Source: Acidobacteriota bacterium (GTDB lineage: Bacteria; Acidobacteriota; Thermoanaerobaculia; Gp7-AA8). From it: DNA of 64,000 bases. Positions 8,147-43,866 of this stretch are shown piece after piece; the stretch's first letter is position 1; the number at the start of each line of letters is the position of its first letter. Made by a program: the position numbers and the translations under genes. Under the pieces are notes generated by a model that did not search any database, was not told where the DNA came from, and was given only the letters and a program-made list of their open reading frames with translations. The DNA lies in contig JAFATB010000006.1 of the NCBI GenBank assembly GCA_019244185.1, positions 1-64,000 of the forward strand. The letters run 5' to 3'.

Positions 8147-9355
8147 CTATTTCGTGTACACCGTTACTTCCGCGCTCGCGCCGACCGGCACGCGATCGGC
8201 GGCCGGTCCGGTCCACTTCACGCGCACGGGCACGCGCTGCACGACCTTCACGTAGTTGCCGCTGGCGTTGTCGGGCGGGAGCAGCGAGAACGTCGAGCCG
8301 GTGCCGCCGGAGAGGCTCTCCAGCGTGCCGTCGAACTCGCCGTCGACGGCGTCGACCTTCACTTTCGCGCGCTGGCCCGCGCGCATGGCGCGCACCTGCG
8401 TCTCCTTGAAGTTCGCGATGACGTAGGTCTGCAGCGGCACGAGCTGGACGATTGGCTGGCCCGCGGTGACGAGCGAGCCGGCGTGCACGGTGAGCTTTGA
8501 CGCGATGCCGTCGCGCGGCGCGGTGATGCGCGCGTACGAGAGGTTGAGCTGCGCGGCGGCGAGCGCGGCGCGTGCGGTGTCGACGCGCGCGTGTGCGAGC
8601 GCGTCGTCCGCTTCCGCGGCGCGGATCTGCGCGTCGACGGGCGCGGTCTGCTGCAGCCGGCCCACCGCCTGCTGCACGTCCGCCTCGGCCTGCTGCTTCG
8701 ACTGTTCCGCCGATGTCAGGTGCGCGCGCGCCTGCGCGAGCTCGGCCTGCGCGGCCTCGTTCGCGGCGCGCGCGGCGTCGACCTGCGACTTCGAGATGTC
8801 GCCCTTGCCGCCAAGCTCCTGCGCGCGCGACCAGTCGTTGCGCGCCTTGTCCGCGTTCGCCTGCGCGCGCGAGACGGCGGCGCGCGCTTCCGCGATCGCG
8901 CTCGACTGCGTGCCCACCTTCTGCTGCGAGCTCTGTACGGCTGCCTGCGCGGTGGTGAGGCCGCCGCGCGCGGTGGCGCGGGCGACGGAGAGGCGCGCGT
9001 CCGCGGCGTCCGCCTGCGCGCTCGCCGTGGCCAGCTCGCTCGTGGCCTGCTGCACCTTCACCTGCGCGTCGCGCGCGTCGAGCTGCACGAGCAGGTCGCC
9101 GGCGCGGACGTGCTGGTTGTCGTGCACGAACACTTGTTCGACCTGGCCGGGGATGCGCGGCGCGACGGCCACGACGTCCGCGGCCACCTGCGCGTCATCG
9201 GTCGATTCTTTGTTCGACGTCATCAGCGCATACGCGCCGTACGCGATGAGCAGCAGCACGACCACTGCCCCGAGAATCATGAACATCCGGCGCGCGCGTG
9301 CCTTCGGCAGCACGGGATCCGGACGGGTAGTTGAGCTCTGTTCCGACATCGTCAC
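8147..9355 (-). CDS. emrA: EmrA/HlyD-family membrane fusion protein
   Basis: A 402-residue periplasmic adaptor linking the EmrB-like transporter to a TolC channel. One transmembrane anchor sits at about residues 27-46. The lipoyl-like half (V-A-P-R-I-P-G-Q-V-E-Q-V-F-V-H-D-N-Q-H-V-R-A-G-D) is followed by a very long Ala/Gln-rich coiled-coil hairpin (about residues 95-260). The second lipoyl half (Y-A-R-I-T-A-P-R-D-G) and a beta-barrel come after. It overlaps emrB by ATGA; the alternative Met at residue 3 cannot be excluded. It is the last gene of a seven-gene operon. Confidence 0.9.
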   Translation of the reverse strand: MTMSEQSSTTRPDPVLPKARARRMFMILGAVVVLLLIAYGAYALMTSNKESTDDAQVAADVVAVAPRIPGQVEQVFVHDNQHVRAGDLLVQLDARDAQVKVQQATSELATASAQADAADARLSVARATARGGLTTAQAAVQSSQQKVGTQSSAIAEARAAVSRAQANADKARNDWSRAQELGGKGDISKSQVDAARAANEAAQAELAQARAHLTSAEQSKQQAEADVQQAVGRLQQTAPVDAQIRAAEADDALAHARVDTARAALAAAQLNLSYARITAPRDGIASKLTVHAGSLVTAGQPIVQLVPLQTYVIANFKETQVRAMRAGQRAKVKVDAVDGEFDGTLESLSGGTGSTFSLLPPDNASGNYVKVVQRVPVRVKWTGPAADRVPVGASAEVTVYTK

Positions 9356-10935
9356 ATCTCCACATGGACTTCGATCTTCTCGCCGCCGCGCTCGGGAGCG
9401 CGGAGCACGAAGACGAGCGGCAGCACGAGGATGAAGAGGATCCCCGCGAGGTAAAAGAGTTTTTCGAAAGAGATCATCATGGCCTGGCGGCGCACGAGAC
9501 CATCGAGCATGTTGCGCGCGAGCGCCTGCGACGACACCGCGTCATAGCCGCGCGCGGCGAACGACTTCGCCATCGCGGCGATGCGCGTCATCGCTTCCGG
9601 ATCGCCCGCGGCGAAGTATCCCAGCATCGACTCGCGGGCGTGCGTCGTGTTGCGCGCGAGCAGCGTTGCGAAGGCGGCGAGGCCGATCGAGCCGCCGACC
9701 TGGCGCAGCAGCGAGTTGAGACCCGTGGCGTCGGAAAGACGATGCCGCGGGATCGACGCGAGCGCGAGCGTCGTCAGCGGGATGAAGAGACAGCTGAACG
9801 CGATGCCCTGCAGGACGAGCACGGTCACGACGCCGCGCGAGCTCGTCGACAGCGTGTAGTGCCCCATCAGCCACGCGGTGTAGCCGAAGAGCAGGATGCC
9901 GAACGCGATGACCGCGCGCGGCGAGACTTTGTTGTAGATCCTGCCGACGATCGGCATGATGAAGATCATCGTCAGCGAGCGTGGCATCATCGCCAGACCC
10001 GCCTGCGTGGCCGTGTAGCCGAGCAGCAGCTGCATGAAGAGCGGCAGCAGGAACGTGACCGCCATCAGCATCGCGAACATCACCGCGCCGACGAGCGTGC
10101 CCGACGTGAAGATGACGTCGAGGAAGAGCGAGAAGTCGACCGCAGGGACGGGCGCCGACAGCTCGCGAATGATCCACGCCACGATCGTGACGACGGAGAG
10201 GAACGCCAGTCCGGTGATCAGCGTCGACTGGAACCAGTCGTTGCGGTTCCCTTCCTCGAGCACGTACTGCAGCGTGCCGAGTCCGACGATCATCAGAATG
10301 ATCCCCGCGTAATCGAGATTCTTCCGCTGCTCCTCGGCCATCGCATGGTTGTGCGCGCGCACGTCTTCCGGCTCGTGCACGAACGCGGTGACCATGACCA
10401 GCGAGATGAGGCCGATCGGCAGGTTGATGTAGAAGATCCACGGCCAGCTGTAGTTGTCGACGATGTAGCCGCCGAGCGTCGGGCCGAAGGCGGGTCCGAG
10501 GACGACGGCCATGCCGAAGATGGCCATGGCCATGCCTTGCTCTTCGTAGGGAAAGGTCTGGCGCAGGATGGCCTGTTCGGTCGGCTGCAACGCGCCGGCG
10601 CCGAAGCCCTGCAGCACGCGGCAGACGACGAGCACCGGCAGCGTGCGCGCGAAACCGCACAGCATCGAGCCGAGAATGAAGAGCACGAGCGAAGCGAGAT
10701 AGACGCGCTTCTGCCCGAACAGGCGCGCGAGAAATCCGGTGAGCGGCATGACCATGACGGTGGCCATGACGAAGCCGGTGGTGACCCACGTGATCTGCTC
10801 GACGGTCGCGCCGAGGGAGCTCTGGAGATGCGGGACGGCGACGTTGACGATCGACGCGTCGATCGCGCCCATGAGCGTGCCGAACGTGACCGAGATCGTC
10901 ACGAGCCACTTGTTGACGGGCTTGCGTTCGGTCAC
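9352..10935 (-). CDS. emrB: EmrB/QacA (DHA2) family MFS drug exporter
   Basis: A 527-residue inner-membrane proton antiporter with 14 predicted helices. Family motifs are visible: D-A-S-I-V-N-V-A-V-P-H in helix 1 (motif D1), G-F-L-A-R-L-F-G-Q-K-R (motif A), R-V-L-Q-G-F-G-A-G-A (motif B) and L-G-P-A-F-G-P-T-L-G-G (motif C, antiporter signature). With EmrA and a TolC protein it forms a tripartite pump. Start and stop overlap both neighbours by four bases, so translation is coupled. Confidence 0.92.
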   Translation of the reverse strand: MTERKPVNKWLVTISVTFGTLMGAIDASIVNVAVPHLQSSLGATVEQITWVTTGFVMATVMVMPLTGFLARLFGQKRVYLASLVLFILGSMLCGFARTLPVLVVCRVLQGFGAGALQPTEQAILRQTFPYEEQGMAMAIFGMAVVLGPAFGPTLGGYIVDNYSWPWIFYINLPIGLISLVMVTAFVHEPEDVRAHNHAMAEEQRKNLDYAGIILMIVGLGTLQYVLEEGNRNDWFQSTLITGLAFLSVVTIVAWIIRELSAPVPAVDFSLFLDVIFTSGTLVGAVMFAMLMAVTFLLPLFMQLLLGYTATQAGLAMMPRSLTMIFIMPIVGRIYNKVSPRAVIAFGILLFGYTAWLMGHYTLSTSSRGVVTVLVLQGIAFSCLFIPLTTLALASIPRHRLSDATGLNSLLRQVGGSIGLAAFATLLARNTTHARESMLGYFAAGDPEAMTRIAAMAKSFAARGYDAVSSQALARNMLDGLVRRQAMMISFEKLFYLAGILFILVLPLVFVLRAPERGGEKIEVHVEM

Positions 10936-38573: not shown

Positions 38574-39062
38574 ATGAACAACCGCGAATACTTTCTCAAG
38601 CGCTGGGACGGCGAGCAGCGCGCATTCTCCGAAGTGCTGCGCGCCGTGCCGAACGATCAGCTGTCGTACACGCCGCACGAGCGGTCGACGAAGGCGGGCG
38701 ACCTCGCCTGGCAGATCGCACTCGAGCAGCGTCTGCTCATCGATCTGCTCGACAAGCAGAAGATGGTGTGGGAGTCGCTGCCGCGGCCGGAATCGATCGA
38801 CGGCATCGTCGCCGCGTACGACGAGGCCACGAACACGCTGCGCGACAAGCTGAAACACTTCGACGATTCGAAGTGGGAACTGCCGGCGAAGTTCATGTTC
38901 GGCGAGCACGTCGCCGGCGAGTCGACCGTGCAGGACTTCGCGTGGGGCTTCCTCTTCGACCTCGTGCATCACCGCGGACAGCTCACGGCGTACTTGCGTC
39001 CGATGGGCGCGAAGGTGCCGTCGATCTACGGTCCGTCCGGGGACTCGGGCGCCGGCAGTTAG
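38574..39062 (+). CDS. DinB-superfamily protein
   Basis: A 162-residue four-helix protein of the DinB/YfiT type. The C-terminal metal-ligand motif H-H-R-G-Q-L is present. In the usual first ligand position (H in D-x-x-x-H-I) this protein has D-L-A-W-Q, so metal binding may be changed. Related proteins are thiol- or stress-linked transferases. It starts nine bases after the MFS stop and may be cotranscribed. Its stop codon lies in the loop of a terminator hairpin. Confidence 0.8.
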   Translation: MNNREYFLKRWDGEQRAFSEVLRAVPNDQLSYTPHERSTKAGDLAWQIALEQRLLIDLLDKQKMVWESLPRPESIDGIVAAYDEATNTLRDKLKHFDDSKWELPAKFMFGEHVAGESTVQDFAWGFLFDLVHHRGQLTAYLRPMGAKVPSIYGPSGDSGAGS

Positions 39063-39927: not shown

Positions 39928-41727
39928 TCAGACGAGTTTCGCTTCGAGCTCCGCCCACCGCGCGTACAGCCGCTCGACCTCCGCGTGCGCCGCCTGCAGC
40001 TCCGCGTAGCGCGTCTGCAGCGCGCCGGCGTCGGCGGCGATCGACGGATCTTCCGCGCGCCGCTGCGCTTCTTCGACGCGCGCTTCGGCGGCGAGCACCG
40101 TTTCCTCCATCGCATCGAACTCGCGCTGTTCGAGGTACGAGAGGCGCTTCGTCTTCGGCGCGGACGGCTTCGGCGCCGCCGTTGACGGTGTTAACGATGC
40201 GGCGGGAGTGTCGCGCTGCGCGGCCTCCCACTGCGGGAAATCGGCGAAGAACTCCGCGTTGCCGCGGCCGTCGAGCGCGAGAAGGCGCGTCGACACGCGG
40301 TCGAGCAAGTAACGGTCGTGCGTCACGAGGACGAGCGCGCCGGGAAAATCGAGCAGCGATTCCTCGAGCACGTCGAGCGTCGGGATGTCGAGATCGTTCG
40401 TCGGCTCGTCCATCACGAGGAGGTCCGCCGGCTGCAGCATCAGTCGCGCGAGCACGATGCGTGCTTTCTCGCCGCCGGAGAGCCGCGACACCGCGGTCTC
40501 GAGCTGCTCGCTGCGAAAGAGAAACCGCTTCGCCCAGCCGGCGACGTGAATGGGTCGGTCGCGATAGATGACCGAGTCGCCTTCCGGTGCGAGCGCGCGT
40601 TTCAGCGTGACATTCGGATCGAGGCTCTCGCGGTTCTGTTCAAAGTACACGACGCGCAGGCCGTCGGCGCGCTCGATGCTGCCCGCGTCGGGCGCGAGCG
40701 TGCCGACGATCATCCGCAGCAGCGTCGTCTTGCCGGAACCGTTCGGGCCGAGGATGCCGAGGCGCGCGCCGGGCGTGAGGAGCAGATCGAGGTTGCGCAC
40801 GATCGGCTGGTCGCCCATCGTCTTCGTGAGCCCGCGCGCGGACCAGAGGCGTTTCGTCTTGCGCTGCGAGGCGGTGAAGTCGATCTCGGTGTTGAACGAC
40901 TGCGCACGGTCGCGCCCTTCGGCCAGCTCGTCGATCAGCTTCTCCGCGTTCTGGATGCGCGCTTTCGCTTTCGTCGTGCGCGCTTTCGCACCGCGGCGCA
41001 GCCACTCCATCTCGCGCCGCACGAGGTTCGCGAGCGTCTCCTGATACGCGGCCTCGTTGCGCAGCACCTCGTCGCGCTTCTCGAGGAGATCGCTGTAGGT
41101 GCCGTCAACCGCGAGCAGGCCGCCGGCGTACGCGCGATTCAGCTCGAGCATCCGCTTGGTCACGTTCTCGAGAAAGTAGCGGTCGTGGCTGACGACGACG
41201 AACGCCTTCGGATCGCTGCCGAGGAGCGATTCGAGCCAGAGGATGGCATCAACGTCGAGATGGTTCGTCGGCTCATCGAGGAGGAGCACGTCCGGCTCGC
41301 GCACGAGCTCGCGCGCGATGGCGAGGCGTTTGCGCCAGCCGCCGGAGAGCGTCTCCGTGCGGATCGCGCGATCGGTGAAACCGGCGCGGCCGAGCGCGAG
41401 CGCGACGCGCGCGAATTTCTCGTGCTCGTCGAGACTCGTGTCCGATGACAGCGCGTCGAGCAGCACGTCTTCCGCGGAACGTCCCGGCGCGAACACCGGA
41501 TCCTGCGGCACGTAGCCGACGCGCACGCCCTTGCGCAGCGCGCGCGTGCCGGAGTCGGCGTCTTCCGCGCCCGCGAGGATCTTCAGCAGCGTCGACTTCC
41601 CCGAGCCGTTCGGGCCGACGAGTCCGACGTGATCGCCTTCGAAGAGCGTGAAGGAGAGATTCTCGAAGAGCGGCCGCGCGCCGTAGGCTTTCGTGAGACC
41701 GTCGGCGGAAAGAAGAACGGGCGGCAT
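39928..41727 (-). CDS. uup: ABC-F ATPase, Uup-like
   Basis: A 599-residue soluble twin-ABC protein. Walker A motifs are G-P-N-G-S-G-K-S-T and G-P-N-G-S-G-K-T-T; signatures are L-S-G-G-W-R-K and L-S-G-G-E-K-A; D-E-P-T-N-H-L-D and D-E-P-T-N-D-L-D follow. An Arg-rich linker (about residues 240-290) and a C-terminal coiled coil after an Ala/Pro/Lys linker (about residues 525-599) match Uup, a DNA- and ribosome-linked member. I chose the ATG at 41727 because the family N-terminus begins there; the frame stays open far upstream but crosses the sigma operon antisense. Confidence 0.88.
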   Translation of the reverse strand: MPPVLLSADGLTKAYGARPLFENLSFTLFEGDHVGLVGPNGSGKSTLLKILAGAEDADSGTRALRKGVRVGYVPQDPVFAPGRSAEDVLLDALSSDTSLDEHEKFARVALALGRAGFTDRAIRTETLSGGWRKRLAIARELVREPDVLLLDEPTNHLDVDAILWLESLLGSDPKAFVVVSHDRYFLENVTKRMLELNRAYAGGLLAVDGTYSDLLEKRDEVLRNEAAYQETLANLVRREMEWLRRGAKARTTKAKARIQNAEKLIDELAEGRDRAQSFNTEIDFTASQRKTKRLWSARGLTKTMGDQPIVRNLDLLLTPGARLGILGPNGSGKTTLLRMIVGTLAPDAGSIERADGLRVVYFEQNRESLDPNVTLKRALAPEGDSVIYRDRPIHVAGWAKRFLFRSEQLETAVSRLSGGEKARIVLARLMLQPADLLVMDEPTNDLDIPTLDVLEESLLDFPGALVLVTHDRYLLDRVSTRLLALDGRGNAEFFADFPQWEAAQRDTPAASLTPSTAAPKPSAPKTKRLSYLEQREFDAMEETVLAAEARVEEAQRRAEDPSIAADAGALQTRYAELQAAHAEVERLYARWAELEAKLV

Positions 41728-41747
41728 GGAAGGCGGAAGATACCAGC

Positions 41748-41770
41748 GAACGAAACCGGCGCAGCCCGTG
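41748..41770 (+). promoter_or_regulatory. Candidate ECF-type promoter of the sigma/anti-sigma operon
   Basis: GAAC (41748-41751), 15 bases, then CGTG (41767-41770) resembles the AAC / CGT pattern of ECF promoters, 11 bases before the sigma ATG. It would allow autoregulation. This rests on short motifs only. Confidence 0.3.
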
Positions 41771-41781
41771 TTTAGGCGTGC

Positions 41782-42399
41782 ATGAAGAACTCCTGGACCG
41801 GCGGAATGGCCGCCACGCTCGAGGAGAACGGCGAGGCGACTCTGGCCGTGGCGGTGCATCGCTGCGAGCCCGGCGCGCTGGAGCGGCTGATCGACCGCTT
41901 CGAAGGCGCGCTGTACGGCTACGCGTACGGCATCCTGCAGAACACCTTCGACGCGCAGGAAGTCGTACAGGACGCGATGCTGCGCGCGCACCGGGCGCTG
42001 ACGCGGCAATACGACGAGGCGCGCTGCGCGGCGCTGGCGCTCCGGCCGTGGCTGTTCAAGATGGTGCGCAACCTCTGTCTCAACAAGCGCCGCTCGAAAA
42101 CGCGCGCGCTCGAACAGCCGCTCGCGTCGTTCGACGACGACCGCCTCGGGCCGTTCGTCCGCGAGCACGGCTCCGAGCTCGAGCGGCGCGAGGACGCGGA
42201 GCTGCTGCGCGGCGCGATGGCGCGCCTCCCGGTCGAGGCGCGCGAGCTCATCGTGCTGCGATTCATGGAAGAGATGTCGTACGCCGACATCGCGAAGACC
42301 GTCGGAGCGTCCGAAGCGGCGCTGCGCGGCAAGGTGTTCCGCTCGCTCAAGCTCCTGCGGGACGCACTGGAAGAAAAAGGGGTGGCCCATGCGGTGTAG
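41782..42399 (+). CDS. ECF-family RNA polymerase sigma factor
   Basis: A 205-residue group 4 sigma factor. Region 2 lies at about residues 30-100 (A-L-E-R-L-I-D-R-F, D-A-Q-E-V-V-Q-D-A-M-L-R-A, P-W-L-F-K-M-V-R-N). Region 4 lies at about residues 140-195 (L-P-V-E-A-R-E-L-I-V-L-R, M-S-Y-A-D-I-A-K-T-V-G-A-S-E-A-A-L-R-G-K-V-F-R). There is no region 3 or C-terminal extension. The gene overlaps the next one by 11 bases, and that next gene begins with an anti-sigma domain, so the pair is almost certainly a cognate sigma/anti-sigma set. Divergent from uup with 54 bases between starts. Confidence 0.93.
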   Translation: MKNSWTGGMAATLEENGEATLAVAVHRCEPGALERLIDRFEGALYGYAYGILQNTFDAQEVVQDAMLRAHRALTRQYDEARCAALALRPWLFKMVRNLCLNKRRSKTRALEQPLASFDDDRLGPFVREHGSELERREDAELLRGAMARLPVEARELIVLRFMEEMSYADIAKTVGASEAALRGKVFRSLKLLRDALEEKGVAHAV

Positions 42400-43255
42400 A
42401 TCGGTTCTGACTCGAGTCGATGCGCTGCGCACCGGCGAGCTTCCGCCGGACGAACGCGGCGAAGTGGAGACGCACATGGAGACGTGCCGCAGCTGCAATG
42501 CGTCGGTGCACGACGTCGGTACGCTCGCGCATACCATCAAGGCGATCGCGCCAGCGCCGCCGCGCTCGTGCCGCGACGCGCTCGCGGATTCGTACGATCG
42601 CGTCGGCGAAGTGTGGGTGGCGTTCTCCGACAGCGGCCTGCGCATGCTCCATCGCGGCGGCAGCTTCGAGGAGTTCCGCGCGCTGCACGCCGAGCGCACC
42701 GGACGCACGCTCAAGTCCGCGACGCTTTCCGACAAGCTGCGCAAGCAGGTCGTCGCCGCGACGAGCGGCGAAGGCGTGGACAAGCCGCAGGTCGACTGGC
42801 GCGCGGACGCGACGCCGCTCGAGCGCGCCGTGCTGGAGACGCTGACGCGGATTCCGCGCGGCGAGGTGCGCACGTATGAATGGGTCGCGCGGCAGGTCGG
42901 ACGGCCGCGTGCGACGCGCGCCGTCGGCTCGATCTGCGCGAAGAACTCGGTGCCGTTCGTCGTGCCGTGCCACCGCGTCGTGCCGTCGACCGGCGGCGTC
43001 GGTCAGTACGCGTTCGGCAGCGCGGTGAAGCGCGACCTGCTGCGGCGCGAAGGCGTCGACGTCGACGCGCTCGACTCGCTCGCGAAACAGCGCGTCCGCT
43101 ACATCGGCTCGCGCACCACGAAGATCGTCTGCTTCCCCACGTGCAAAGACGCGCGGCGCATCCGCGAGGACAACCGCGTCCCTTTTCACGCGGCCGGCGA
43201 AGCGCTGGAGAAAGGATTCCGGCCATGTCTGCGATGCAAGCCGTTCGCGGCCTGA
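42389..43255 (+). CDS. Anti-sigma (ZAS) - O6-alkylguanine-DNA alkyltransferase - Ada Zn-domain fusion protein
   Basis: A 288-residue fusion. Residues 1-50 have the exact zinc anti-sigma motif C3-x25-H29-x3-C33-x2-C36. Residues about 70-222 are a full alkyltransferase domain: Arg finger R177 in T-R-A-V-G, N186, active site P-C194-H-R-V-V and E221. Residues about 235-285 are the Ada methylphosphotriester domain with all four zinc cysteines (C248, C252, C280, C283), C248 being the methyl acceptor equivalent of E. coli Ada Cys38. The AraC-type DNA-binding domain of Ada is absent. Domain order is the reverse of Ada. Predicted role: bind the ECF sigma factor and release it when DNA-derived methyl groups are accepted. 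Function is inference; the domains are clear. Confidence 0.9.
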   Translation: MRCRSVLTRVDALRTGELPPDERGEVETHMETCRSCNASVHDVGTLAHTIKAIAPAPPRSCRDALADSYDRVGEVWVAFSDSGLRMLHRGGSFEEFRALHAERTGRTLKSATLSDKLRKQVVAATSGEGVDKPQVDWRADATPLERAVLETLTRIPRGEVRTYEWVARQVGRPRATRAVGSICAKNSVPFVVPCHRVVPSTGGVGQYAFGSAVKRDLLRREGVDVDALDSLAKQRVRYIGSRTTKIVCFPTCKDARRIREDNRVPFHAAGEALEKGFRPCLRCKPFAA

Positions 43256-43866
43256 GCGTTCCCGAGATCCACGCGGTGTCGCGGCCCGCGCGCGCCTTCA
43301 CCGGCGACTTCTACTTCACGCACCGCGAAGGCGCGCGCACGTGGTTCGCCCTCGGCGACGTCGCGGGCAAAGGTCTGCCCGCCGCGATCGTGATGGCGAT
43401 GATCCAGGAGGAGCTCGAGCTGCGCATCGCGTCGTGCGCGAGCGCCGCGTGCGATCCGGCGACAACCACGCGCCGCCTCCACGAGTTCCTCGCGCCGCTG
43501 CTCCCGCGCAATCGCTTCGCCACCGCCGTCCTCGGCCATCTCGACGACGACGGCACGCTGACGATCGTGAACGCCGGCCACTGTCCGCCGCTCCTCGCCC
43601 GCGCCGACGGCCGCGTCGAGGAGCTCGGCTCCACCGGCCCGCTCCTCGGCATCCTTCCCTGCCCGCGCTGGAGCTCCGTCAAACGCCGCCTCGAACCCGG
43701 CGACGCGCTCGTGCTCTACAGCGATGGCGTGACCGAGGCCACGATCGATGGCGGCGAGGAGCTCGGGGTGGAGGGTTTGCGCGAGCGCGTCGCGCGTCGC
43801 GAGAACCTGCTCGACGGACTCGACACGCACGACGACGTGACGCTCGTCGTCGTGCGACGGCCGTGA
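43225..43866 (+). CDS. PP2C/SpoIIE-type serine phosphatase (RsbU-like catalytic domain)
   Basis: A 213-residue stand-alone phosphatase domain. Metal-binding residues are visible: G-D28-F-Y, G-D45-V-A-G-K-G, Y-S-D-G-V-T-E-A and D-D-V-T-L-V-V-V. N-A-G-H-C-P-P-L-L is the SpoIIE/RsbU signature. It has no N-terminal sensor domain and no membrane segment. The ATG at 43225 lies inside the end of the fusion gene, with AAAGGA eight bases upstream, so the three genes 41782-43866 are one unit. No anti-anti-sigma (STAS) substrate is encoded in the window, so its target is unknown; the sigma or its anti-sigma partner are candidates. Confidence 0.88.
   Translation: MSAMQAVRGLSVPEIHAVSRPARAFTGDFYFTHREGARTWFALGDVAGKGLPAAIVMAMIQEELELRIASCASAACDPATTTRRLHEFLAPLLPRNRFATAVLGHLDDDGTLTIVNAGHCPPLLARADGRVEELGSTGPLLGILPCPRWSSVKRRLEPGDALVLYSDGVTEATIDGGEELGVEGLRERVARRENLLDGLDTHDDVTLVVVRRP

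Follow-up and report, generated by a model that had tools for sequence, protein, structure and literature searches.

Genes and domains of the operon

The DNA analyzed here is a stretch of 64,000 nucleotides from an Acidobacteriota bacterium (GenBank assembly GCA_019244185.1, contig JAFATB010000006.1; hereafter the window), in which three genes on the forward strand encode an extracytoplasmic function (ECF) sigma factor, a fusion protein that joins a predicted zinc anti-sigma (ZAS) domain to an O6-alkylguanine-DNA alkyltransferase (MGMT) and an Ada zinc domain (Ada_Zn), and a SpoIIE/PPM-type phosphatase. A first-pass annotation had described this set and read the fusion as a one-protein switch that methyl transfer to C248 or C194 would loosen from the sigma factor, which would then induce repair genes. 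The three-gene set (ECF sigma, zf-HC2/MGMT/Ada_Zn fusion, PP2C/SpoIIE-type phosphatase) is confirmed by the reading frames and by Pfam, and the interpretation as a whole is partly supported by the results given below.

The sigma factor (41782..42399, + strand; 205 amino acids) matches Pfam Sigma70_r2 (E 1.3e-11) and Sigma70_r4_2 (E 7.8e-11) and the sigma70-ECF superfamily (E 4.1e-23). Its gene overlaps by 11 nt that of the fusion (42389..43255, + strand; 288 amino acids), which was delimited from Pfam matches, homologues and conservation, and whose start at 42389 is supported by the fact that M1 is invariant across the alignment of relatives. The N-terminal domain (residues 1-65; 42389..42583, + strand) is predicted to be ZAS-like, as zf-HC2 is matched over residues 3-36 at E 1.7e-6, above the curated cut-off; the predicted zinc ligands are C3, H29, C33 and C36, in the spacing C3-x25-H29-x3-C33-x2-C36. 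Among NCBIfam models, antisigma (E 2.1e-5) and RsrA (E 9.6e-4) both fall below their cut-offs, and in a Foldseek comparison anti-sigma domains occupy the first 14 of 21 rows (five entries), with weak E values of 0.26-3.2. The arrangement falls within the ZAS definition of HxxxCxxC with a fourth Cys or His ligand 23-26 residues before it (PMC4960319), and its spacing equals that of the RsrA ligands Cys11, His37, Cys41 and Cys44 (PMC4960319). It also resembles ChrR of Rhodobacter, in which a soluble ZAS domain is followed by a sensor domain in one chain with an ECF sigma factor (PMC4960319). However, the sensor of ChrR is a cupin and its zinc site is HHCC, whereas the proposed sensor here is a suicide DNA-repair enzyme and the zinc site is CHCC; ZAS anti-sigma factors with a sensor domain were thus already known, and it is the kind of sensor that appears to be new. 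The database call of the window gene (P0001) begins at residue 30, with loss of C3 and H29 (42389-42475), so that the anti-sigma domain would escape automated annotation.

The MGMT domain (residues 63-224; 42575..43060, + strand) contains Y163, R177, N186, C194-H-R and E221 and matches Pfam DNA_binding_1 over residues 144-223 (E 3.2e-28). The MGMT/Ogt signature, a PCHR nucleophile around which Tyr, Arg, Asn and Glu partners have their roles, is thus present in full. The Ada_Zn domain (residues 238-285; 43100..43243, + strand; Ada_Zn_binding E 7.9e-12) contains C248, C252, C280 and C283. In domains of this type four cysteines hold the zinc and the first of them is the nucleophile; alignment with the N-Ada chains 1adn and 1u8b places C248 on the first Cys of FCRPSC, which we take to be Cys38. 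As judged from matches to Ada chains, the protein thus resembles E. coli Ada in carrying a methylphosphotriester-type zinc domain and an O6-methylguanine transferase, the two repair parts of Ada, in one chain. Unlike Ada, it has the Ada_Zn domain at the C-terminus rather than the N-terminus and would act through an ECF sigma factor, not through promoter binding; no AraC domain was found in it by Pfam scan at E values up to 0.1, in agreement with the first-pass annotation.

The phosphatase (43225..43866, + strand; SpoIIE E 4.2e-39 in Pfam) has 213 amino acids counted from a start, ATG 43225, that was chosen by the analyst in a frame open from ATG 42880; if this start is correct, its gene overlaps that of the fusion by 31 nt. 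The motifs GDVAGKG, YSDGV and DDVT can be read in the window protein, and the SDG pattern is absent from one (L047) of 13 proteins scanned.

Conservation of the fusion and its linkage to the sigma gene

A protein search returned 2,479 relatives of the fusion, and the 120 best listed each span 90-100% of the query. The alignment examined has 136 rows, namely 17 genome loci (window included) and 119 database proteins (P0002-P0120, P0001 having been dropped as a shortened call of the window gene); the database rows are the best-scoring of the 2,479 matches, so that close relatives are over-represented. All of the residues singled out by the first-pass annotation are present and are invariant in 136/136 rows: C3, H29, C33 and C36 of the zinc motif, R177, N186, C194-H195-R196, E221, C248, C252, C280 and C283. 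The four zinc-site residues are also kept in 22/22 rows of an N-terminal alignment.

In the window's own family (f1) the system is present in 18/18 genomes, in 16 of them at full length. The other two hold pieces: a C-terminal piece of the fusion followed by the phosphatase (G015), and a contig end that retains the sigma gene and the first 58 residues of the fusion, including all four zinc-site residues (G011). Of 148 genomes of the class, 27 match at E 1e-20, in some cases through plain MGMT genes; in a draw of 396 genomes from the phylum 57 match at E 1e-30, mostly over the MGMT part only. Full-length fusions outside f1 were found in one genome of the same order (family f2) and, in the 396-genome draw, in five genomes of families f58 and f42. 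That the gene might be a rare chance fusion with degenerate sites, a possibility raised in the first-pass annotation, is therefore ruled out by its homologues, by its presence throughout f1 and in three other families, and by the conservation of its residues. In a tree of the MGMT domain one branch (support 87/74) separates the ZAS-type rows from the rest, and the f58 rows nest within f1; this nesting suggests that the fusion has moved between lineages.

In 33/33 linked loci a same-strand sigma gene immediately precedes the gene for the MGMT protein; 22 of these loci are ZAS-type and 11 belong to zinc-less cousins. By comparison, a directly upstream same-strand sigma gene was seen in 0/17 stand-alone MGMT loci judged within the at most ~1.5 kb covered on each side (20 loci less L005, with no match, L027, the same place as L053, and L167, with no upstream sequence); at one stand-alone locus, L162, a sigma gene lies ~2 kb downstream. 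Of the 22 fusion loci, the window's among them, 19 have the phosphatase next after the fusion, as does the partial G015 locus. This recurrence, together with the catalytic motifs kept in the window protein, would fit a scheme in which the SpoIIE-type enzyme is the driver, dephosphorylating a partner-switching protein that frees the sigma factor while the fusion is a constitutive brake. However, L046 and both f42 loci retain sigma gene and fusion but have no phosphatase after the fusion, and such a scheme is considered highly improbable.

The zinc-less cousins occur in families f16, f13 and f33, where an ECF sigma gene is followed by a gene for an MGMT-Ada_Zn protein whose N-terminus has no zinc ligands. 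The Ada_Zn match of L053 (f13) is below its cut-off, as is a zf-HC2 match in L180 by Pfam scan, and in genome G317 (L190) the gene after the sigma gene encodes an MGMT protein that has an additional N-terminal part and does not match Ada_Zn. Among f16-type sequences chosen from the listing, the cysteines of both MGMT and Ada_Zn are kept in 40/40 rows. In f33 a gene for Oxygenase-NA, which according to its Pfam description acts on damaged DNA, is added in 5 of 6 loci (one copy running off its contig); it was found in 0 of 18 genomes of f1. The six f33 sigma genes (L184-L189) share a different upstream motif, TTCCACC...GTATAA, near the start codon.

The operon promoter and its recurrence

A predicted ECF-type promoter, CGAACG-N14-CGTGTT (41747..41772, + strand), ends 9 nt before the start codon of the window sigma gene. 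Of 23 operon loci, 22 have an exact CGAACG-N14-YGTGTT before the sigma gene and the other (L183) departs from it by one base. Both blocks are in register across 22 operon loci and their flanks are variable; the distance from the end of the second block to the start codon is 9 nt in 20 of 21 loci and 11 nt in L035 (L182, whose start is unsure, was omitted). The blocks are interpreted as the probable -35 and -10 elements of an ECF promoter that would yield a leaderless mRNA.

Within the window alone, allowing up to one mismatch, one promoter match was found against 1.52 expected by chance, and by itself this match carries little weight. Across the 18 genomes of the family, however, the exact pattern occurs 59 times versus 5 times for a reversed-pattern control, an excess that is only a guide since the control does not keep CpG content. 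Seventeen of the 59 sites are operon promoters, six precede a DUF1203 gene, three precede a gene for an S-adenosylmethionine (SAM) methyltransferase, and 33 have no assigned target. The DUF1203 gene is present in 7 of the 18 genomes, with the exact promoter before six copies and a one-mismatch site before the seventh; such recurrence ahead of a gene family unrelated to the operon, across six or seven genomes, is hard to attribute to chance. The SAM methyltransferase gene has six places in family genomes, three with the promoter; before the other three no like site was seen in the stretch covered, and two of these matches comprise the C-terminal part only. The view that the sigma factor switches on genes thus gains a conserved promoter on the operon and, in genomes other than the window's, on putative DUF1203 and methyltransferase targets, neither of which was found in the window genome. 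In that genome, up to one mismatch, there are 30 sites versus 8 for the reversed control.

Several individual sites deserve mention. In L037 (G016:C82) the operon promoter and first codons occur twice (9334-9359 and 10351-10376), on opposite strands and 1 kb from each other. The second copy continues into an unrelated frame, and the arrangement is either a genuine inverted duplication or an artefact of assembly. In L094 (G009:C22:37606-37631) a strong promoter match (CGAACGAAAC...CGTGTT) has no good open frame close behind it, and a small RNA or a short gene is possible there. In L110 (G011:C181:3196-3221) a match lies 9 nt before a 150-residue open frame, the spacing being that of the sigma operon, and this frame has by eye a signal-peptide-like start.

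Proposed release of the sigma factor by DNA alkylation

The reading favoured here, with modest confidence, is that alkyl transfer to the repair cysteines of the fusion releases the sigma factor, which would then drive the operon that encodes it and a small number of further genes. The ZAS domain would hold the sigma factor until alkyl transfer to C194 or C248 alters or destabilizes the fusion; the freed sigma factor would read CGAACG-N14-YGTGTT at its own operon, a feedback that would supply coupled amounts of new sigma factor and new repair/anti-sigma protein, and would also drive a small lineage-specific gene set (DUF1203, SAM methyltransferase). Proteins of the MGMT and Ada families take up the alkyl group irreversibly, so that fresh, unmodified fusion would recapture the sigma factor only after the lesions are consumed, and the loop would in effect count lesions. 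More tentatively, the counter may be stoichiometric, each repair irreversibly spending one brake and freeing one sigma factor, with reset when new enzyme outlasts the damage; the zinc-less cousins would then widen the class of alkylation alarms that are independent of an AraC-type Ada. If the alkylation-release reading is correct, an adaptive response to DNA alkylation would proceed via sigma release and not via an AraC-type Ada activator, and a DNA-repair enzyme would serve as the sensor of an anti-sigma factor. The promoter sequence and the two target families make the system directly testable.

A number of points weigh against this reading. Sigma binding and release are both predictions from sequence, and the fold matches of the N-terminal domain are weak (E 0.26 and above) and of a kind, small helical bundles, that is easily matched. 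No alignment to the ZAS domain was obtained for the N-termini of the zinc-less cousins (for f16 hhalign gave a probability of 13, over the linker only, and for f33 nothing useful), and a Pfam scan found no anti-sigma family for L053, L184 or L190. Apart from the operon itself, none of the targets identified in f1 is a recognised alkylation-repair gene (33 of 59 sites being without assigned target), and no such promoter stands in front of the AlkB-family genes (five places in 4 of 18 genomes). The only site with up to one mismatch (spacing 13-15) lies behind the AlkB match, in L194, and a promoter-AlkB link was accordingly rejected; a two-mismatch site lies 336 nt upstream in AlkB locus L191. 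The earlier expectation that the sigma factor induces repair genes thus finds partial support: the operon would yield more of its own repair enzyme, but no known alkylation-repair gene is among the other targets identified. In the window genome no second site was judged convincing, the other exact match being antisense inside a DinB gene, and the regulon there may therefore be the operon alone.

The zinc site itself raises a further difficulty, as it is CHCC, the redox-sensing type of RsrA. RsrA, the single-domain partner of sigma-R, senses disulfide stress, for which Cys11 is required, and redox sensing is tied to Cys as the N-terminal ligand (PMC4960319); the invariant C3 places the fusion in the same class, and its zinc site could thus itself be the sensor, with disulfide formation or electrophile attack on the thiols expelling zinc and freeing the sigma factor, and the MGMT and Ada_Zn domains being the output enzyme only, carried in the same chain. 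A thiol-type system is indeed associated with an MGMT-like gene in Corynebacterium glutamicum, where deletion of RshA, the anti-sigma factor of SigH, raises the cg0184-cg0186 cluster with a putative methylated-DNA methyltransferase (PMC3489674); this network resembles the present one in its ECF sigma and anti-sigma pair, but the methyltransferase there is a separate target gene and not part of the anti-sigma factor. One promoter match, moreover, precedes a DinB-family gene with sub-threshold resemblance to mycothiol transferases. In Mycobacterium smegmatis a methylated-DNA methyltransferase is lowered by peroxide (PMC4520597). However, the sigma-linked cousins keep MGMT and have no zinc ligands, so that MGMT, not zinc, is the element common to all sigma-linked systems examined, and the repair domains keep their catalytic cysteines as invariantly as C3 is kept. 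Sensing by the zinc site alone, the main alternative, is judged rather unlikely, and a dual sensor is possible.

The invariance of the repair cysteines also bears on whether the switch depends on alkylation chemistry at all. MGMT and Ada_Zn are DNA-contacting domains (according to Pfam, and to the DNA-bound structures among the matches), and lesion binding might compete with the sigma factor, or the fusion might be degraded after repair. Occupancy alone would leave the invariance of the four Ada_Zn cysteines unexplained, the MGMT domain being already present, and a switch by occupancy or turnover is considered improbable by comparison with release through alkyl transfer.

No description of a ZAS-MGMT-Ada fusion was found in the literature searched, which comprised the top matches of long listings and lay outside subscription papers and preprints. 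The first-pass statement that no described system of this build was known needs qualification: an association with MGMT had already been listed for ECF group 122, in which 6-O-methylguanine DNA methyltransferases are conserved neighbours and which is grouped among ECFs without cognate anti-sigma factor (PMC8999054). The 33 linked loci resemble this group in their neighbour gene, all of them having an MGMT protein behind the sigma gene. Unlike group 122 as presented there, the fusion would supply an anti-sigma factor, and it is thus a candidate answer for ECF sigma factors beside MGMT genes that are thought to have none.

The window genome contains two further MGMT-domain genes (G000:C2:356704-356943 and G000:C3:92914-93153), neither with a promoter match of up to one mismatch before it, and its single Ada_Zn match is the one inside the window fusion. 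Upstream of the operon in the window lie a DinB-family gene (38574-39062) and, in divergent orientation, a gene that shows ATP-binding cassette motifs and is ABC-F-like by eye (39928-41727).
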